From: Kiritimatiellia bacterium
Lineage (GTDB): Bacteria > Verrucomicrobiota > Kiritimatiellia > RFP12 > UBA1067
Assembly (NCBI GenBank): GCA_017450695.1
Contig: JAFSTA010000139.1
Span: forward strand, 1-45,323
Length of the DNA stretch: 45,323 nucleotides
Direction of reading: 5' to 3'
Shown here: piece by piece, positions 28,181 to 38,186 of the stretch
Numbering within the stretch: position 1 is the stretch's first letter
Layout of the letters: every line of letters begins with the position of its first letter
Program-made: the position numbers and the translations under genes
The notes under the pieces: generated by a model
What the model was told of the DNA's origin: nothing
Seen by the model: the letters and a program-made list of their open reading frames with translations, nothing else
Database searches by the model: none

Positions 28181-28427
28181 GTCCGCAGTCGCAGGGCGCA
28201 TCCCAAGAATTCGCCGCATCGCTGGAATTCACAGCCGATTTTTTTGATGAGAACTGCGCAAGCGTAAGCGTGGCGCGTCTGTGTTGGTCAGTGGTTCGTT
28301 GATTAAACCACGGACGTACACGTACAGGCTTCGCTCACGCTTGCCTTGAATTGGAACTGGAACGTACTCTGTTTCGTTTACCGTTCACCGGCTTGGATCT
28401 CACGCGGAGGCGCGGAGACGCGGAGAA
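28181..28427. repeat. Long direct repeat, copy 1
   Basis: It starts GTCCGCAGTCGCAGGGCGCA and ends in CACGCGGAGGCGCGGAGAC. It aligns almost throughout to 28501-28738 with small indels (for example GGTTCGTTGATTAAACC here against GTTTAGTTTATTAAACC there). Confidence 0.85.
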
Positions 28428-28500
28428 GGCGTGTCATCGTGGGTGGGGCGTCCCACCTGTTTTTTTTCACGCAAAGCAGATAGGGGACGCGCCCAGCCAC

Positions 28501-28738
28501 GTCCGCAGTCGCAGGGCGCATCTCAAGAATGCGCCGCATCACGGGAATTCACAGCCGATTCTTTTGATGAGAACTGCGCAAGCGTAAGCGTGGCGCGTCT
28601 GTGTTGGTCAGTGGTTCGTTTAGTTTATTAAACCACGGACGTACACGGACAGGCTTCGCTCACGCTTGCCTTGAACTGAAACGCTCTCTGTTTCGTTTAC
28701 TGATGGATCTCACGCGGAGGCGCGGAGACGCGGAGAAC
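28501..28738. repeat. Long direct repeat, copy 2
   Basis: The second copy of the unit at 28181-28427, separated by 73 bases. Both copies contain AAGCGTAAGCGTGGCGCGTC and end with the dispersed CTCACGCGGAGGCGCGGAGA word. Confidence 0.85.
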
Positions 28739-28780
28739 GGGTTGCTGTCCTTGGCGACCGCTTGCTCAGAGAACCAGACC

Positions 28781-29597: not shown

Positions 29598-30554
29598 ATG
29601 AAACGGATGGTCTGGATTGTGAAACGGTGGTTCGCGGCGGCTGCGATAACCGCGGTGTTGGCCGCTGCGTTCACCGCGTCCGGCGAAACGGTGACGAACG
29701 TACGCGGGCAGCAGCGAGAGAAATCCAACCTTGTCGATATCTACTACGACCTAGAGGCAACGGAGGGTGGCTCGTACACCGTCAAGGTGGAGATCGAGGG
29801 ACGGACCAACGAGGTCAACGCCGCCACCTTCACGGGCGACGTGGGCGAGGGTGTCGCGTCCGGCAAGAACAAGCACGTCGTGTGGGATGCGGGAACCGAC
29901 TGGCCCGGAAAGAAGGGCGACGTGAAGGCCAAAGTGACGGCAACGAAAGCAGAACACGATGGATGCCAGCTTTGGGAGGGCGGGCCGTACTGGGCCGACC
30001 GGAACGTCGGCGCGTCCACGCCTGAGGACTACGGCCTCTACTTCTGGTGGGGCGACACCGTGGGCTACCATCCGTCGGGAAACACGTTCGGTTTCAGCTT
30101 CGGTTCGGCAAACTGCCCCACATACAACAAGTCCGTTTCCACTCTGCAAAGCGAGGGATGGATCACGTCGGGCGGCGTTCTTGCGCCGGCGCATGACGCG
30201 GCGCACGTACACTGGGGCGGCGCGTGGCGCATGCCGACATATCAGGAACTGAACGATCTCTGCTACAACAAGTGCGACTGGACATGGACGACGATGAACG
30301 GTGTGAACGGCTGGGTCGTGCGCGGCAGGGGCGTTTACGCCTCCAACAGCATCTTCCTCCCCGCCGCCGGCTTCGGCCGCGGGACTTCGCTCAGCGTTGC
30401 CGGTTCGAGCGGCGAGTACTGGTCGTCCGTCCCGGGCTCGGACTACGACTACTTCTCGGGGGGCCTCAACTTCTACTCGGGTGGCCACAGCACGGACGGC
30501 AACATCCGCAGCAACGGTTTTTCGGTTCGCCCTGTCCAAGGGTTCAGCAATTAG
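29598..30554 (+). CDS. DGR target (variable) protein: secreted, FISUMP/C-type-lectin-fold
   Basis: 318 residues. A signal peptide (MKRMVWIVKRWFAAAAITAV, cleaved near ASGE) is followed by an N-terminal beta-sandwich-like domain (about 30-115; NVRGQQREKSNLVDIYYDLE) and then a formylglycine-enzyme/C-type-lectin-like domain of the Fibrobacter major paralogue type: CQLWEGGPYWADRNVGASTP, GGAWRMPTYQELNDLC, WTWTTMNGVNGW, SIFLPAAGF, and YWSSVP. The last 63 residues are the variable repeat. In other DGR systems this fold displays the diversified residues on a ligand-binding face. ATG 29598 has GAGGAAGGA upstream, and the frame is open a little further. It is the first gene of the DGR group. Secretion puts the variable face outside the cell; the ligand is unknown. 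Confidence 0.93.
   Translation: MKRMVWIVKRWFAAAAITAVLAAAFTASGETVTNVRGQQREKSNLVDIYYDLEATEGGSYTVKVEIEGRTNEVNAATFTGDVGEGVASGKNKHVVWDAGTDWPGKKGDVKAKVTATKAEHDGCQLWEGGPYWADRNVGASTPEDYGLYFWWGDTVGYHPSGNTFGFSFGSANCPTYNKSVSTLQSEGWITSGGVLAPAHDAAHVHWGGAWRMPTYQELNDLCYNKCDWTWTTMNGVNGWVVRGRGVYASNSIFLPAAGFGRGTSLSVAGSSGEYWSSVPGSDYDYFSGGLNFYSGGHSTDGNIRSNGFSVRPVQGFSN
30358..30546 (+). repeat. DGR variable repeat (VR)
   Basis: 189 bp at the 3' end of the target gene, matching the template repeat at 31840-32016. In a gapped codon alignment I count 26 substitutions, 25 at TR adenines, and one C-to-G (TR AAC, VR GAG at codon 11 of the repeat). The unchanged blocks (GGGACTTCGCTC, TACTGGTCGTCC, GGTTTTTCGGTTCGCCCTGT) lack variable adenines or kept them. 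The VR is 12 bases longer, in AAC tracts. The final homology, TTTTTCGGTTCGCCCTGTCC, is the initiation-of-homing region. Confidence 0.95.
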
Positions 30555-30662
30555 CGAACGAAGTGAACGCATTCCATTCTTTCATTCTTTCATTCTTCAA
30601 TCGCACGCGGAGGCGCGGAGAGGCGGAGAGCGCAGAGGGAAAGTTAAGGCCAGGAAGTTGGT

Positions 30663-31157
30663 ATGGCATCAATTGAGAACAGTCTGAAATACGAATCGGA
30701 GGTTGAGCCAGGGAAGGTACGGCTTATCGCGTCGGGCGAGTTCGTGCGCGCCTACAACCACAGCGCGTGGTTATTCTATTGCTGTATTTCAAAGTACAAG
30801 GTAATACGGAAGTATTCTAAACAACAGCAAAGGGATGTCTATTTTCTGGGGTTCCCCATAAGCAAACTCCTTGAACTGATCAACGGGCGTGAGTATGCGA
30901 AGACGGATTTCGGGTACGACATCACGTTGAAACAGGAGGAGATGCCGGTGGAAGAAGGGTACGAGGCGTGGACGAAGGAGGTGCCGGTAGAGATCGCGTC
31001 GCGCGCGGGGGCGAGCGCGTTGCCACTTTCCGGCCGGGAACTGGCGGACGCGGTCTGCAAGAAAATCCGCGAGTTCCCGCTCGAGACGAAGACGCTCGTC
31101 GAGACGGTCGTGTTTTTGAGCGAGATGCGAAAACTTCTTATTGGGGAGGGGGAATGA
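30663..31157 (+). CDS. MutS-like DGR accessory protein (probable)
   Basis: 164 residues. The segment AYNHSAWLFYCCISKYKVIRKYSKQQ followed by RDVYFLGFPISKLLELI resembles the N-terminal mismatch-recognition domain of MutS; proteins of this kind have been described beside DGR reverse transcriptases as MutS-like accessory genes. There is no ATPase domain. The C-terminal part (GRELADAVCKKIREFPLETKTLVETVVFLSEMRK) is helical. It lies between the target gene and avd, 108 bases after the VR gene. ATG 30663 has AGGA 8 bases upstream. The resemblance is by eye; a role in the mutagenic homing step is inferred from position. Confidence 0.65.
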   Translation: MASIENSLKYESEVEPGKVRLIASGEFVRAYNHSAWLFYCCISKYKVIRKYSKQQQRDVYFLGFPISKLLELINGREYAKTDFGYDITLKQEEMPVEEGYEAWTKEVPVEIASRAGASALPLSGRELADAVCKKIREFPLETKTLVETVVFLSEMRKLLIGEGE

Positions 31158-31200
31158 TGTCTCACGCGGAGACGCAGAGACGCGGAGAAATGGAGGTGGC

Positions 31201-31758
31201 TTGAAGGAGAGCGCCATATATTCCAACTTGCCTGTTTACCGTGACTGCTACGCCGTGGCTCTTGAGTTCGCCAAGGCGCGGGGAACACTGCCGCGTGACA
31301 CGCGCTATACCATTGCTCAGGATCTGAACCGGGCATTGGTCGGCATGATGGTGACGATTTACCGTGCGAACTCGTCGCGCGCGGACAAGGCACGGCTCAT
31401 CGCGGAACTGCGCCGCCAGGCTGTGGAGGTGCAGATTTACTTCCGGCTCTTATCCGATATGCACCAGCTGGGCGCCGTGAAGGCGGCGTTCTTCATGGAC
31501 AAGGTGCAGTCAATCGGCAAGCAGCTCGCCGCCTGGCATAAGAGCGCGGCAAGAGAGAGCAGGATTTCAAACGGTGCGGAGCCGCCGTCCCTGACGGACG
31601 GAAGGCCGGAATGCGCCGGGCCGCGGCCCGGCGCAGCGAGCCACAAGGTGAACCCAATATGCGGGAGTGCCGCGCTTGTCGCGTCTGTGGACGCAATGAA
31701 TTGCGTCCCTCCCGTCGTGAAAGGCGGTCTGACCGGGAACACGGAGGTGACTTCGTGA
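31201..31758 (+). CDS. avd: Avd, accessory variability determinant of the DGR
   Basis: 185 residues from TTG 31201. The first 115 or so match the Avd four-helix-bundle pattern: YRDCYAVALEFAKARGTLPRD, TIAQDLNRALVGMMVTIYRA, LRRQAVEVQIYFRLLSDMHQL and MDKVQSIGKQLAAWHKS. Avd forms a positively charged pentamer that binds the RT and the template RNA. The TTG start has GGAGG upstream; the open frame begins at 31141 but its first 20 codons are a copy of the dispersed CTCACGCGGAGACGCAGAGA repeat. The last 65 or so codons run through palindromic repeat DNA (GAEPPSLTDGRPECAGPRPG), so the true Avd may end near 31560 in origin and has been extended by repeat insertion. Confidence 0.88.
   Translation: MKESAIYSNLPVYRDCYAVALEFAKARGTLPRDTRYTIAQDLNRALVGMMVTIYRANSSRADKARLIAELRRQAVEVQIYFRLLSDMHQLGAVKAAFFMDKVQSIGKQLAAWHKSAARESRISNGAEPPSLTDGRPECAGPRPGAASHKVNPICGSAALVASVDAMNCVPPVVKGGLTGNTEVTS
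31613..31634. repeat. Perfect 22-bp palindrome at the 3' end of avd
   Basis: GCGCCGGGCCG followed by its exact complement. It is within the avd reading frame's repeat-derived tail and 206 bases before the TR, so it is in the transcript that forms the DGR RNA. Confidence 0.8.
31689..31708. repeat. Hairpin between avd and TR
   Basis: GGACGCAAT-GA-ATTGCGTCC, a perfect 9-bp stem with a two-base centre. With the 22-bp palindrome and a CCGTCC/GGACGG stem near 31587-31603 it makes the segment upstream of the TR strongly structured. Confidence 0.8.
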
Positions 31759-31839
31759 AAACGGTAAATGACAAAAAGGTGCGCGGATGTTCCATTATGC
31801 CACATCCGTCCACCAGTGAAGAAGGCCGGCCTGAAAGAG

Positions 31840-32016
31840 TCCCCGCCGCCGGCAACGGCAACGGGACTTCGCTCAACAATGCCGGTTCGAACGGCAACTA
31901 CTGGTCGTCCGTCCCGAACTCGGACAACAACAACTCGAGGAACCTCAACTTCAACTCGGGTAACCACAACACGAACAACAACAACGGTTTTTCGGTTCGC
32001 CCTGTCCAAGAGTTCA
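31840..32016 (+). ncRNA. DGR template repeat (TR), part of the template RNA
   Basis: 177 bp, rich in AAC codons, matching the VR over its whole length. It is transcribed to RNA and copied with errors at adenines by the RT; the copy replaces the VR. It has runs of AAC: three at 31925-31933 and four near 31973-31984, where the VR has four and seven NNC codons. It lies between avd and the RT, the usual order. In the reading frame of the RT it translates in the same frame as the VR and no stop separates it from the RT. Confidence 0.95.
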
Positions 32017-32117
32017 CCGCCGATCCCGGGGACGGCGTTCCGCACCGTGGCTCTTCCACGGATGTTTTTAGCCACATAGAACACAAAGAGCGCAAAGGAG
32101 AAAATCTTCTTGCGGAT

Positions 32118-33413
32118 TTGATTGTGGCGTACCATGACGCGAGGCGGCACAAGCGCGGGCGCGACTACCAGACGCATTTCGAGATGAACCAGGAGCAGGA
32201 GCTGGTGCGGCTGCGCGACGAGCTTCTGGAGCGCCGCTACGTGGCGCGTCCGTCGAGTTGCTTCATCATACACGACCTGAAGATGCGCGAGGTGTTCGCG
32301 GCGGCGTTCCGCGACCGGGTGGTGCACCATCTCTTCTACAACTACACGCACGAACTCTTCGAGCGCACGTTCATCGCGGACAGCTACAGCTGTATCGAGG
32401 GGCGAGGGACTCACTATGGGATCGGGCGGTTTCGGCATCATCTGCTCTCTTGCTCGCAGAACTGGTCGAGACCGTGCTACGTGCTGAAGCTCGACGTCAA
32501 AGGTTACTTCATGAGCATCAACCGCGCACGGCTGCTGGCCCGTTGCAGGGATTTGCTTGCCAGGGCAAAATGTTCACAAATTGCAAATGTCACAAATGTT
32601 CACAAATTGCAAATGGCAAATGGCGGAGGTGCGGGGATGCTCCGCACGGATATTTGCATATGCGGCACTGATGGAAATTGTGGACAATTGGGATTTGTGA
32701 ACAATGAAACCGCATGGATAGATTGGTCTCTCATCGACTATCTGCTGGAATCGATCTGTATGCTGGATCCGCTGAAGAACTGCCGGGTCGTGGGCGACAG
32801 GAGCGAGTGGCACCGCTTGCCGAAGGAGAAGTCGCTGTTCCATTCCAAGCCGGGATGCGGGTTGCCGATCGGCAACCTCTCGTCGCAGCTTTTCAGCAAC
32901 ATCTACCTCGGCATTTTTGACGATTTTATGAAGCGGGGGATGAAGTGCCGCCACTACGGACGCTACGTCGATGATGCTTACGTGGTTGCGTCCTCCAAGG
33001 AAGAATTGTGCGGCATTGTACCGCAGGCAAGGGATTTCCTCCGCGATGAACTGGAACTTGAACTGAACGAGGAGAAAGTACGCGTGATCGACGCCTACAA
33101 GGGCGTGGAGTTCCTCGGTGCGTATGTGAAGCCTTATCGCACGTATCCGTCAAGTCGGACGCTCCATAGGATGCGCGGGCGAATGAAGTCGCTCGACTGG
33201 AGGGAACGGCCAAGGCGGATTCAGGCGAGGGTGAACAGTATGCTCGGGGGGCTCTCGCACTACGACTGCTACCAGATGCGCAAGGTTTTGGCATGGCAGG
33301 GGCGGCTGCGAGAGTTTGGGGATGTTTCGGATGACTGCTTGAGGTTCTACCCAAATGTGTTGAGGCTTCTGACGGAAAGAAGTTCCCAAGAAACTTACAC
33401 CACTTTGTCTTGA
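32118..33413 (+). CDS. DGR reverse transcriptase, with in-frame insertion
   Basis: 431 residues from TTG 32118. It copies TR RNA into cDNA that replaces the VR, with adenine-directed errors. RT motifs are complete: MREVFAAAFRDRVVHHLFYN, LKLDVKGYF with catalytic D126, DGR-type CGLPIGNLSSQLFSNIYL (GLPIGN 248-253), and YVDD at 283-286, followed by VEFLGAYVKPY. Residues about 151-196 are a non-RT segment (AKCSQIANVTNVHKLQMANG ... GFVNN) encoded by a palindromic element; without it the length is about 385, normal for DGR RTs. The start is uncertain: no ATG lies between the TR and motif 1, AAAGGAG at 32094-32100 favours TTG 32118 or GTG 32124, and the frame is open back through the TR. Confidence 0.95.
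   Translation: MIVAYHDARRHKRGRDYQTHFEMNQEQELVRLRDELLERRYVARPSSCFIIHDLKMREVFAAAFRDRVVHHLFYNYTHELFERTFIADSYSCIEGRGTHYGIGRFRHHLLSCSQNWSRPCYVLKLDVKGYFMSINRARLLARCRDLLARAKCSQIANVTNVHKLQMANGGGAGMLRTDICICGTDGNCGQLGFVNNETAWIDWSLIDYLLESICMLDPLKNCRVVGDRSEWHRLPKEKSLFHSKPGCGLPIGNLSSQLFSNIYLGIFDDFMKRGMKCRHYGRYVDDAYVVASSKEELCGIVPQARDFLRDELELELNEEKVRVIDAYKGVEFLGAYVKPYRTYPSSRTLHRMRGRMKSLDWRERPRRIQARVNSMLGGLSHYDCYQMRKVLAWQGRLREFGDVSDDCLRFYPNVLRLLTERSSQETYTTLS
32569..32705. repeat. Palindromic MITE-like element inserted inside the RT gene
   Basis: It begins AATGTTCACAA and ends TTGTGAACAAT, inverted ends with one mismatch, matching the element at 2442-2534. The interior has repeats of AATTGCAAATG and a GTGCGG/CCGCAC hairpin. 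It is read through in frame by the RT and encodes 46 residues or so in the loop between the LKLDVKGYF and GLPIGN motifs. Confidence 0.72.
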
Positions 33414-33425
33414 AAGGAAAAAACG

Positions 33426-36400
33426 ATGAAAAAGACGATAAAATCGATGATGATGTCCACGGCGTTCACGCTACTTGCTTTTACCCTCCTGGGGGCTACG
33501 GGCAGCTCGGAGTGGTTTTATGTCGATACCACGGATGAGACGCTGAAGATCTCGGACGTGAGGAGCAAATACTTCGAGGGCGAATACGGCGGCCGGACGG
33601 GGCGCAAGTCCACCTTCCTGAACGGGGTGTCCTGCGAAATCGAGATGAGGGCGGTCATGGACGATTACTCGGAGGTGGACCATTGGCTCGTGAACGGGCA
33701 AAAGGTCACGGCGCGGACGTTCTCGGTGGATGTCGGGACAATCGAGGTCGGCGGGAAACTCGAAGTCGTCGCGGTCGGGAAAGAGGAGGGAATACGTTCG
33801 AAGCCGTTCCGGGTGAATTTCGACATCGCGGAACACGTGGACAGGGAAACAGGCGGGTTGTGGAAGGCGGGACGATCGAACAGCGAGGGAATCGACGAAA
33901 TCGTCTATACACTGTACGGCGGTTCCCCGTCAGTCACGTTCCCGTTCGCGCCGGAGAAGAAGGGCGCCAAGCCGGACAAGTTGAAGTGGCTGCCGGGCGA
34001 CGAGTGGGCGCTCACCCCCAAAATTGAACTCAAACCCGAAGTCCGCTCCGGCGGGAACGGCAGCTGCACGTTCGGCACGATTGGAGGCCAGCTGGGTACC
34101 AGCGGTTCCGAGGGGACTGCAAGCCACAAGAGGAATCGGCGCGCGGCGGGCAAGCTCGCCCGCGTGATGGACAGAGAGGTCGGCATCACCTTCACGGGCG
34201 GTCCGCTGACGCTGTCGTGGAATCCCCAGAAGCGCAAGTGGGTGGCCGAGGATGTTTCCTTCGGCGGGGAAGTGAGCGGATCGCTCGGCCTGACGCACCA
34301 TTACCCCACGCCGATCGGTCCGGTGTTCCTTGAGGTGAAGGGGGAGCTTGCGCTGGCGGGCACATTCAAGGTGTCTGGGATCGACGCCGCGTTGGACGGT
34401 ACGGGCGGGCTTGAAAGCTCGTTCACGCTCAGCAGCGAACGTCTGCCGAAGGTGTCCGTTGGGGGCGGATACGGCATCAACAACGTCGCGAACCTAAAAG
34501 GATCCCTTTCGGGGATGTCTGTCCTGAATGCGACGCACAGCAAGAGGGCGTGGACGGATGTCCGGTGGGGGCTTCGGGGATCCGGCGCGATTACGGCGAA
34601 GTTCCTTCCGTTCGAGACGACGCTGTTCGAGCTGACCTCGGAAACGCTCTGGATTATCAACAACAGCTCGCCTAATTCGGCGCGGCTCATGTCTGCGACA
34701 CCTGCCGACGGTCTCGAGTGGCGGTTGCAACCGCGCGACTACCTGACATCCGCGAAAGCGAACGCGCGACTCCTCTCGGCGCCTGGCGGTGGAGAGTTTG
34801 CGCCCGTGGATTCCGGCGGCTACCCCGAACCGGCTCCGGCGATGGCGAGCGGCGTAAAAGGCGACGCGCTCGCGTATCTGCGCGACAACGCGGCGAGGTC
34901 GTCCGCGAACCGCACAGAGCTTGTTGTGCGCATGGGCGCAAGCAACGTGTGGGGTGCGGCTGAGGTCGTGTGGGACGACGGCACGGCGGACTTCCTGCCG
35001 TCGCTGGCTTCGATGCCGGACGGCTCGATCGCGGCGGCGTGGATGAACGCTTCACGCACGTTCCCGGATGACGTGACGGTTGAAGAATTCTGCGGCTCGG
35101 AGGAGATCGCCGTTGGAATCCGCAATGCGGCGGCTGGGATGTGGAGTTGCCGCAACCTGACGGCGGACGGCGCGTTCGACTTCTCGCCCGCCGTGCGGGC
35201 GGCGGCGAACGGGAAAGTCCTTGTGGCGTGGCTGCGGAACGCATCGGGGAAGATGGCGAGTTCCGCCGCAGAGCCGACTGACATCATGGCGGCGATTTAT
35301 GCGAACGGCCAGTGGGGCAGTCCGACGGCCGTGCGGAGCGGCGTCGGCATCGTGAACGGGTTTGACGTGGCGTTCGACGGAGAGAAAGCCGTGCTAGCGT
35401 TCTCGAAAGACGCTGACGGCGATCCGTCAACATTGGACGATGCCGAGGTGTACGCGCTCCGGCTGGATGGCGGCATCTGGGGAAGCCCTGTGCGTCTGAC
35501 GGCGGCTGGCGACGCGGACGGGACGCCGCTTGTACGCGCGAACGGCGGATCGTTCGCGGTTCTCTGGACGGAGAAAGGCGCGTTGATGGAGACGGCAGAT
35601 CTGGCACTCTCCAACGCGGTTGCCGTCGCGGCGTCGGACGGGTGGAAGCTTCCCGCGAATCCCGTGATGCTTCGAGGCGCGGACGGGCGCGACGCGCTCG
35701 TGTGGAACGATGTCTCGGCGGCGGGCGGCGCGGCGGATGCGCCGACGGCGATGATGTACGACCCGGTGTGCGGCGCATGGGGCGCGCCAATACAACTGTT
35801 CGACGACGGACGCAAGGAGAGCCGCCTTTCCGGCGTGATCGGGGCGGACGGCGGACTGCGGATCGGCTACGAGTCCTCCTCGGTCGCCACGAATGTGGAC
35901 GGTTCGCTGGCATTTGGCGACGTCCAGCTCCGGACGAGGCTGATACACCCCGTTTGCGACCTGGCGGTGGACGAGTCCGGTTTCACTTTCTCTACCGACA
36001 CGTTTACGAACAAGCAGGATGTTGTCCTCACGGTAAAGGCGGTGAACCTCGGGTTTATGCCGGCGACAAACGCCGTGGTTGCGGTCTACGAGGGCGCGGG
36101 GGATTCGAAGCGGGAACTGGCGACGGTGGTCACCAATTTCCCCGGAGGGGGCGCCGTCTCCATCGCCGTCCCGTGGACGGTGGATAACACGCAGTCGAAT
36201 CTTTCGTTCACGGTTGCGATTGATGCCGGGGCAAATATGGAGCCCGCCGACGCCAAGGACAACAACGTGTATGTCTGGCAGGCGGGGGGATATTCCGTGA
36301 TGTTCGGCAGTGTGACGGTACGGAATGAAAACCGTTCACGGAGGCTCCTGACGGCAAGCGTCTCCAACGGCGGACTCGGACCGCTTCCGGCCGGCGGCAA

Positions 36401-38186
36401 AGTCGTTTTCCGGCGCGGAGGCGAGAACGGCGAAATCCTTGCTGAGGACACTCTTGGAACGGTTTCGTCGGGAGAGGACGGTGTTTACAATGCCGGTTTC
36501 GTCTGGAATCTGGACGGAACTGTCTTCACGTCGGCGTGGGAGACCGTCTGCGTACAGCTTTTCCCCGACGGCGAGGTCGGGGACGCGCTTGACGCGGTGG
36601 ACATGGCGTTCGTTCAGGTGATGACGGCTCTGGACACGGACGGGGACGGTTTGCTGGATGCGCAGGAAGAGCAGCTGGGTACGGATCCGCGCAATGCGGA
36701 CACGGACGGGGACGGCATCGGGGACGGCGACGAGGTGGACTCCGAGGGGACGAACCCGCTGGAGGTAAACATACCTTTGGCGGCGCCGGCAGTCACTTCG
36801 GTGGAGTCGAATCGCGTGGACGGTACTGTCGGGTTAACGGTGCGATGGACGGTGTCGGATGGCGCGACGGGGTATGAGGTGTGGCGTTCCGCAAATAAGT
36901 CAAGGAACGATGCCGTGCGAATTGCGGCGGTATCGGCGTTTTCCTATTTCGACGCGACGGTAAGGTTGGACGGTCTTTATACCTACTTCGTCAAAGCGGT
37001 AGGGTATTCAGGGACGAGTAACCTTGGAAAAGGATACGTATGGTCTCTGGGCGAGTTGGTCGAGGAGCCGGACACCCCAGATGATCCGGTTGTTCACGTC
37101 TATGCGCTGCACGACGCCCCGGTGTACGGCGGGATTCCCTCGTCGTACAAGGGATGCACGTTCAACGGGTATGCGGTGGACGGGAACGGGCTGATCACCG
37201 GGACGTTCGTTCTCGCGGTGAAGAAGCCCGCGAAGGGCAAGACGACCTCTGCCGCGACGTTGACCTTCACCTCGCTCGCCACCGGCAAGAAGATGAAGCT
37301 GGTCGGGAATGTGAGCCTCGCCACGGGGGCGGGCAGCGGAGGTCTGGCGGGACTGACGCTCGGCGCGAACGCGGTCGGCGGGACGGTCGCGAAGGTCGGG
37401 ACGCTGGAGGGCGGCGCGGACGCGGCGAAGGCGAAGAACGCCGCCGCGCTCTCCGTGCTGTCGAAATTCAGCGGCAAGTCCTACGTGATTGCGCTGGGAC
37501 CGGAGAATCCCGCCGCATTCGCGCAGGGCGGCTGCTCGACGCTCTCGCTTTCGATGGCGGCGAAGGGCAAGGCGAAGGTTTCGGGCGTGCTGGCGGACGG
37601 CACGAAGGTGTCGGCGAGCGGCGTGATGACGATGGGCGAGGAGTATTGCTGCGTTCCCGTGATCTACTCGAAGAAGAGCCGTTTTGGATTCGTCGCGTGG
37701 TTCAACCGCAACACCCGCGAATTGGTTGACGTAACTGCGCTGACGCCGTGGAGGAACACGGTGAAACCCGCCTTCACGATGGCGTGGACGCTGCAGGGCT
37801 TCGGCGCGAAGGGGAATTTGATTCCCGGAATCAACGAGGTGACGCTGGACGAAGAGAAGTTACTTGGTTTCGTCCCCGGCGCCATCGACGAGACGCCGGG
37901 CGAGATCGACCTGACGGTGAGCGGGACAAAATGGAACGCGGGCAAGGCCGCGAAGGTCGTGTACAAGGGCGGCGCGGTGATGGTGACGGGTGAGAACGTC
38001 TCTGGTCTGAAGCTAACCTACACCGCGAAGACGGGGCTGTTCAAAGGTTCGTTCATCGTGTACGCGGTGAAGGGCGGCAAGCTGATGAAGAACAAGTTCA
38101 GCGTCTTCGGCGCGGTCACCGGCGGTGTCGGCTACGGCACCGCCGTGCTGAAAGGCAAGGGCAGCGTGGTGGTCGCGGTCGAGTAG
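33426..38186 (+). CDS. Very large secreted surface protein with TSP3-like repeats and Fn3 domain
   Basis: 1586 residues with a signal peptide (MMMSTAFTLLAFTLLGATGS). The N-terminal 400 residues are beta-rich and contain KRNRRAAGK basic patches. A central region (about 450-850) has repeated SMPDGSIAAAW and RAAANGKVLVAW type strands as in beta-propeller-like repeats. A calcium-binding thrombospondin-type-3-like segment DTDGDGLLDAQEEQLGTDP / ADTDGDGIGDGDEVD follows at about 1070-1113, then a fibronectin-III-like domain (1118-1212). The last 365 residues carry two similar FNGYAVDGNGLITGTF / GLKLTYTAKTGLFKGSF modules, probably cell-surface anchoring. The start lies 13 bases after the RT stop, with AAAGGA upstream, so it is likely cotranscribed with the DGR. 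It has no VR, so it is not itself a target. Confidence 0.85.
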   Translation: MKKTIKSMMMSTAFTLLAFTLLGATGSSEWFYVDTTDETLKISDVRSKYFEGEYGGRTGRKSTFLNGVSCEIEMRAVMDDYSEVDHWLVNGQKVTARTFSVDVGTIEVGGKLEVVAVGKEEGIRSKPFRVNFDIAEHVDRETGGLWKAGRSNSEGIDEIVYTLYGGSPSVTFPFAPEKKGAKPDKLKWLPGDEWALTPKIELKPEVRSGGNGSCTFGTIGGQLGTSGSEGTASHKRNRRAAGKLARVMDREVGITFTGGPLTLSWNPQKRKWVAEDVSFGGEVSGSLGLTHHYPTPIGPVFLEVKGELALAGTFKVSGIDAALDGTGGLESSFTLSSERLPKVSVGGGYGINNVANLKGSLSGMSVLNATHSKRAWTDVRWGLRGSGAITAKFLPFETTLFELTSETLWIINNSSPNSARLMSATPADGLEWRLQPRDYLTSAKANARLLSAPGGGEFAPVDSGGYPEPAPAMASGVKGDALAYLRDNAARSSANRTELVVRMGASNVWGAAEVVWDDGTADFLPSLASMPDGSIAAAWMNASRTFPDDVTVEEFCGSEEIAVGIRNAAAGMWSCRNLTADGAFDFSPAVRAAANGKVLVAWLRNASGKMASSAAEPTDIMAAIYANGQWGSPTAVRSGVGIVNGFDVAFDGEKAVLAFSKDADGDPSTLDDAEVYALRLDGGIWGSPVRLTAAGDADGTPLVRANGGSFAVLWTEKGALMETADLALSNAVAVAASDGWKLPANPVMLRGADGRDALVWNDVSAAGGAADAPTAMMYDPVCGAWGAPIQLFDDGRKESRLSGVIGADGGLRIGYESSSVATNVDGSLAFGDVQLRTRLIHPVCDLAVDESGFTFSTDTFTNKQDVVLTVKAVNLGFMPATNAVVAVYEGAGDSKRELATVVTNFPGGGAVSIAVPWTVDNTQSNLSFTVAIDAGANMEPADAKDNNVYVWQAGGYSVMFGSVTVRNENRSRRLLTASVSNGGLGPLPAGGKVVFRRGGENGEILAEDTLGTVSSGEDGVYNAGFVWNLDGTVFTSAWETVCVQLFPDGEVGDALDAVDMAFVQVMTALDTDGDGLLDAQEEQLGTDPRNADTDGDGIGDGDEVDSEGTNPLEVNIPLAAPAVTSVESNRVDGTVGLTVRWTVSDGATGYEVWRSANKSRNDAVRIAAVSAFSYFDATVRLDGLYTYFVKAVGYSGTSNLGKGYVWSLGELVEEPDTPDDPVVHVYALHDAPVYGGIPSSYKGCTFNGYAVDGNGLITGTFVLAVKKPAKGKTTSAATLTFTSLATGKKMKLVGNVSLATGAGSGGLAGLTLGANAVGGTVAKVGTLEGGADAAKAKNAAALSVLSKFSGKSYVIALGPENPAAFAQGGCSTLSLSMAAKGKAKVSGVLADGTKVSASGVMTMGEEYCCVPVIYSKKSRFGFVAWFNRNTRELVDVTALTPWRNTVKPAFTMAWTLQGFGAKGNLIPGINEVTLDEEKLLGFVPGAIDETPGEIDLTVSGTKWNAGKAAKVVYKGGAVMVTGENVSGLKLTYTAKTGLFKGSFIVYAVKGGKLMKNKFSVFGAVTGGVGYGTAVLKGKGSVVVAVE

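Follow-up and report, generated by a model that had tools for sequence, protein, structure and literature searches.

A chromosomal diversity-generating retroelement from Kiritimatiellae with its template repeat within the reverse transcriptase open reading frame

The DNA analysed here, referred to as the window, is the whole 45,323-nucleotide stretch of contig JAFSTA010000139.1 (assembly GCA_017450695.1) of a rumen-type Kiritimatiellia bacterium. On its forward strand lies a cassette in which a target gene, an MSL gene, avd, a template repeat (TR) and a reverse transcriptase (RT) gene follow one another in that order, the four genes sharing a single orientation. The target gene (29598..30554) encodes a secreted-type protein of 318 amino acids, whose C-terminal Lcl_C/FISUMP-like domain holds the variable repeat (VR, 30358..30546). 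It is followed by MSL (30663..31157), a protein of 164 amino acids which resembles MutS domain I, and by Avd (best read as 31201..31758), which starts at a TTG behind GGAGG and whose TGA stop codon shares bases with the GTG at which the following open reading frame is likely to start. That frame (31755..33413, 552 amino acids) runs from this GTG, behind GGAGGTGA, through a short leader, the TR (31840..32016) and a linker into the RT itself. All the parts are present, and the cassette is a genuine diversity-generating retroelement (DGR) built from parts of known kind, as an earlier note on this DNA had held when it described a complete DGR with Avd, a MutS-like protein and RT adjacent in one orientation. 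The neighbours of the cassette are ordinary or uncharacterised chromosomal genes and, with no viral relative emerging from one viral-contig scan, an origin from a prophage or phage was rejected.

The TR and VR are near-repeats which differ at TR adenines, both in the window and in the related genomes G057 and G050, where the adenine bias is equally strong. Aligned over 177 columns, the two repeats of the window show 26 substitutions, 25 of which sit on TR adenines (48 in the TR) and one elsewhere (Fisher p=4e-16), such that both the repeat coordinates and the count of 25 in 26 put forward in the earlier note are borne out. Moreover, a tabulation of the substitutions by codon, which that note had proposed as a check, puts every adenine change (18 A>G, 6 A>T and 1 A>C) in the first or second position of a target codon; the VR lies in a coding gene and its substitutions are of the amino-acid-changing kind. 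The most 3' of these, the A>G at 32011, is located in the constant 3' end of the repeat. Since the VR of G057 also has a G at the matching site, where its TR has another base, this change looks like an IMH/IMH* difference rather than a product of mutagenesis and, once it is set aside, 24 clear adenine events are left. The VR exceeds the TR by 12 nt, in two gaps of 3 nt and 9 nt, a length mismatch which does not appear in the earlier note; TR/VR length differences of 3 nt are also seen in G057, L060, L078 and L082.

The target has an N-terminus which, judged by eye, is like that of a signal peptide, suggesting that the protein is secreted. Its match to Lcl_C (1.9e-5) falls under the gathering score, seven of 12 target homologues match FISUMP, and homologues occupy the same place in the loci of relatives. 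The structural comparison also proposed at the outset, of the target with FISUMP and C-type lectin folds, gave no meaningful match, the AlphaFold model (pLDDT 59) being too poor for fold testing. The earlier description of a secreted FISUMP/C-type-lectin target accordingly stands in a weakened form, in which the weak family matches are consistent with a possible fold of this type and the appearance of the N-terminus with secretion.

The two accessory assignments fared better. For MSL, which is conserved in 11 loci, the Pfam family MutS_I is matched by nine of the 11 homologues (best 5e-4), the window protein by itself having no Pfam match. A Foldseek search with its AlphaFold model (pLDDT 80) returns MutS structures first, with probabilities of 0.66-0.93 over the first 11 matches, none of them under E 0.001, and the similarity of MSL to MutS domain I is supported. 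Avd is recognised by the models bAvd (5e-7) and NF033474 (DivGenRetAVD, 1.6e-9), in both cases below the curated cut-offs, and is retained at the same place in relatives, providing the cassette with an accessory protein of the DGR kind. Within the PDB, the RT itself is best matched by the 8ub7-8ube reverse transcriptase series (7.6e-29), which we take to be the RT of the Bordetella (BPP-1) DGR; in Pfam it is recognised by RVT_1 (3.5e-12). From the PDB-match alignment, the DGR-type motif GCGLPIGNLSSQ lies at approximately 32855..32890 and, from this alignment and the sequence, the catalytic YVDD motif lies at approximately 32964..32976. The protein carries GLPIGNLSSQ and YVDD, in other words the GxxxSQ in motif 4 and the YxDD of a DGR RT, in line with the DGR-type RT (GLPIGN, YVDD) noted at first sight. 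No other RT was found in the 5.0-Mb genome, and an Rfam search gave no match.

The closest records are the MAGs RUG14821, RGIG2765 (Kiritimatiellae, goat omasum) and UBA3783 (Verrucomicrobia), and the next-closest come from Bacteroidales, with RT identities of 46-53%. The order target-MSL-Avd-TR-RT is found in the window, in G057, in G050 and in seven Bacteroidales loci, as well as in L072 for its available part. The RT tree contains an eleven-member group (support 93/88) within which the Kiritimatiellae trio is nested at 100/100, a nesting which suggests a single transfer between Bacteroidota and Kiritimatiellae.

The history of homing can be followed by counting the differences between TR and VR at TR non-adenine sites in the window, G057 and G050. 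Comparison of each TR with the VR of its own genome gives 1 difference in 127 such sites for the window, 1 in 136 for G057 and 2 in 134 for G050. Across genomes, the counts rise to 12 in 127 for the window TR against the G057 VR, 13 in 134 for the G057 TR against the window VR, and 33-38 for comparisons that involve G050. TR and VR evolve together within each genome, which argues that homing took place in each lineage after its split from relatives. It is pertinent in this regard that the extra 9 nt of the window VR include a CGC codon which pairs with AAC AAC CGC AAC of the G057 TR. This match suggests that the window TR lost AAC/CGC codons after the VR was last rewritten; in other words, the window VR would be older than the present TR. 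The claim in the earlier note that the organism 'can therefore rewrite' an exported protein is hence sustained on an evolutionary time scale, by the concerted change of TR and VR, but is overstated for the present cell, in which the VR keeps codons that the TR has lost.

Three FISUMP-like genes of the genome, C167, C264 and C234, were also considered as products of the present TR and were rejected, since they differ from it at 24 of 123, 34 of 124 and 44 of 124 non-adenine sites, respectively, and none of them is taken to be an active VR. Against the TR of G050, however, the segment C264:1892-2080 differs at 10 of 131 non-adenine sites and at 30 of 52 adenine sites (p=2e-12), which marks it as the VR of another DGR, orphaned in the genome of the window; C167 and C234 are weaker, relic-like cases. 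Taken with the TR/VR length mismatch, the orphan VR allows homing events and template turnover to be ordered in time.

The frame that encodes the RT has received two in-frame insertions. One, of 54 nt (32052..32105), is located in the linker between TR and RT, where the alignment shows it to be missing from relatives; by eye, it is a AGAACACAAAGAGCGCAAAG-type repeat. The other (32565..32717), which adds 51 residues, lies in the RT and is a copy of a dispersed palindromic repeat (TGTTCACAAAT...ATTTGTGAACA, arms 32571-32602 and 32672-32703) which has 32 matches in the genome; this insertion is common to G065, partial in G057 and absent from G050 and Bacteroidales. Rickettsia palindromic elements are inserted in frame in genes, and the present repeat can be likened to them by description, as a dispersed palindromic repeat within a coding gene, although here, unlike in Rickettsia, the host gene is the RT of a DGR.

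An alternative reading is that the cassette is decaying or already inactive in this genome, the repeat having entered the RT, the TR having contracted and the VR being left as a relic of earlier activity. The in-frame repeat in the RT and the 12 nt of VR that are missing from the TR would fit this reading, as would the related G065, which retains the target and an RT but has lost avd, the TR and the N-terminal part of the RT, what is left of the RT forming a single frame with MSL, although this deletion and fusion may instead be an error of metagenome assembly. The window RT, however, is intact and is under purifying selection as strong as that in its relatives (pN/pS 0.19-0.24 between relatives, with the repeat present or not), with the insert alone being under looser selection (pN/pS 0.65 vs G065). 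Moreover, the repeat was probably in place before the window and G057 diverged, and concerted evolution of TR and VR has continued in G057 thereafter, such that an RT with an insertion of this kind probably still worked, and only a single non-adenine difference separates the TR and VR of the window. Decay of the cassette is thus judged to be unlikely.

The open frame of the RT begins upstream of the TR and encloses the whole of it. The earlier note is silent on this arrangement, as it is on the repeat insertion in the RT. The start of RT translation is likely to be GTG 31755, which has a perfect GGAGGTGA Shine-Dalgarno sequence in front of it and overlaps the Avd stop as GTGA, and this combination of GGAGGTGA with a GTG overlapping the Avd stop is common to all three Kiritimatiellae (window, G057 and G050). 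In each of the eleven loci grouped on the RT tree, those of Bacteroidales among them, the TR forms an in-frame part of the RT open reading frame. In the leader and linker of the 10 loci that were measured, frame 0 contains zero stops, whereas frames +1 and +2 contain 32 and 52, each locus having some in both, with the proviso that the frames of related loci are non-independent observations. The leader is 84-93 nt long and the linker 45-102 nt, all lengths being multiples of 3, such that the indels are exclusively triplets. As judged from these reading frames, translation of the RT probably takes in the template as well.

An alternative which accepts the DGR as real is that the TR is untranslated and that the RT starts at TTG 32118 or GTG 32124, the frame being open upstream of these codons because the TR copies the codon structure of the VR, and the flanks being constrained as template RNA. 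Several observations are in keeping with this. In the leader and linker, synonymous and non-synonymous differences are similarly few, which places the conservation partly at the nucleotide level, and strong protein-level selection on the leader was looked for and not seen. Outgroups which have stops likewise carry a GGTAAAT-like motif ahead of the TR. In the sister branch of five loci, TR and RT are in the same frame, with two loci open and three having a stop between TR and RT, and in Bacteroidales relatives further afield most of the TRs that were found lie outside the RT gene. L155, furthermore, demonstrates that chance can leave a frame open through the TR, since its natural MQLSLF start is retained after the TR. 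Set against these points are the absence of stops from 10 of 10 loci with triplet-only indels, when both other frames have stops everywhere, and the lack of any Shine-Dalgarno sequence before TTG 32118 or GTG 32124 as compared with the perfect one before GTG 31755. In L065, indeed, there is no ATG, GTG or TTG from the TR to the RT core, and hence no internal start. On balance, an untranslated TR appears improbable. That TR and VR might be fragments of paralogues which have drifted apart and show their bias by chance, a view for which the lectin-like paralogues elsewhere in the genome could be adduced, is scarcely credible in the face of p=4e-16, a bias of equal strength in G057 and G050 and a full DGR gene set adjoining.

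The overall explanation, which we hold to be very probable, is then of a chromosomal DGR in Kiritimatiellae with its TR in the RT frame and best read as translated through from GTG 31755. By analogy with established DGR biology, from which the steps of cDNA synthesis and homing are drawn, the RT together with Avd, and probably MSL too, would copy the TR part of the cassette mRNA to cDNA, erring at template adenines, and this cDNA would replace the VR at the end of the secreted protein, turning AAC codons into NNC. With the TR lying within the RT frame, the template RNA would double as the mRNA of the RT. Translation from GTG 31755, coupled to the Avd stop, would pass through the TR and furnish the RT with an Asn-rich N-terminal extension. 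A frameshift or stop in the TR would consequently also destroy the RT, and broken templates could then probably not reach the targets. Among the points that weigh against this picture, a search of the TR-RT linker for conserved RNA structure found none.

Set beside the BPP-1 DGR (mtd-avd-TR-brt), the window has in common the C-terminal VR in the target, Avd, the TR upstream of the RT and adenine mutagenesis. In BPP-1, TR and brt are separated by a structured spacer (PMC12875486), whereas the window has the TR in the RT open reading frame, an additional MSL gene and a chromosomal location. A TR overlapping the 5' or 3' end of the annotated RT open reading frame is the mark of structural group 3 in the DiGReF survey of 2012 (PMC3521204). 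The present DGR falls in this group through the overlap with the 5' part of the RT frame, but in its clade the whole TR is in frame (11 of 11 members), the start is conserved and two phyla are involved; in the passages of PMC3521204 that were covered, no translation or conservation test of the overlap was found. A survey from 2021 describes the TR as 'in most cases' intergenic (PMC8144416). In the limited set of papers covered, none was found that treats the TR as a translated part of the RT. The Bacteroidales DGRs L065-L072, with RTs 46-53% identical, share gene order, MSL, Avd and the TR within the open reading frame, but their genomes hold several dispersed VR-like sites, as against one local VR and relic-like paralogues in the genome of the window. 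DGR targets of the human gut include DUF1566 (now Lcl_C) and Fib_succ_major (PMC4159848), the same kind of C-terminal variable domain as that of the window target, although the host group is a different one and the similarity in the window is below curated cut-offs.

The system itself is known; its notable variant, and the feature that merits testing, is the retention of an in-frame TR within the RT gene by a clade that extends across two phyla. A tentative extension of the preferred reading, possible but on present evidence doubtful, is that the template is kept as the N-terminal coding part of its own RT, that the RT acts in cis on its own mRNA and that the frame acts as a quality check on the template, since destruction of the RT by a broken TR would prevent broken templates from being spread to targets. 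If the TR is indeed translated as part of the RT throughout the clade, the template must necessarily serve both as coding sequence and as RNA template. A translated TR would, if true, suggest a built-in check of template integrity and an RT that works preferentially in cis, on the mRNA from which it is made.

Matches to the reverse transcriptase (RT) query are found in 37 of 144 related genomes (for example, the Kiritimatiellae loci L059-L061, L076, L079 and L083), in a few of which it is the repeat insertion alone that matched, and many of the 37 hold a second type of diversity-generating retroelement (DGR) with its template repeat (TR) 3' of the RT. Several sites resembling a variable repeat (VR), on other contigs, are also seen in G144-G149, Bacteroidales genomes with a DGR of the window's kind. 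The insertion itself is a dispersed palindromic repeat, in frame within the RT (window 32565-32717) and with 32 genome matches; it is common to the window and the related genome G065, and G057 has part of it.

Among 25 related DGR RTs from Bacteroidales (L133-L155), 12 have a Q[LY]x[LI]F motif (MQLSLF type) close to the N-terminus; the motif is absent from the RT cores, which total 14,452 aa. It resembles the motif for beta-clamp binding. In the Bacteroidales loci where the TR lies within the RT reading frame, SLSLF precedes the TR in the leader. It is known that DnaN interacts with a group II intron RT (PMC8914252) and that replication direction is linked to DGR homing (PMC12875486).

In and around the window cassette, repeated intergenic GCGGAGGCGCGGAGACGCGGAGA segments occur at 28404-28743, 30607-30636 and 31166-31195, one of which separates the MutS-like accessory protein (MSL) from Avd. 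Directly 3' of the RT is a 1586-aa protein with TSP3 repeats (33426-38186), the C-terminal part of which, by eye, resembles the N-terminal part of a lectin-like protein on contig C167 of the same genome, G000. In G065, the VR is retained, avd and the TR are lost, and the RT from residue 65 is joined in frame to the MSL N-terminus (L052, 8386-9738), an arrangement that reflects either a defunct DGR or a misassembly.

Elsewhere in G000, a FISUMP-like (lectin-like) gene has a VR-like C-terminus (C264:1892-2080; L056, L004), which fits the TR of the related genome G050, differing from it at 30 of 52 adenine sites as against 10 of 131 non-adenine sites (p=2e-12). This stretch is an orphan VR, its own TR and RT being absent from G000. 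Two further FISUMP-like paralogues (C167:63560-63745 and C234:2299-3219; L055, L123) exhibit a weaker adenine bias against known TRs (p of 4e-5 and 3e-3, respectively, with the window TR), and are perhaps older VRs.
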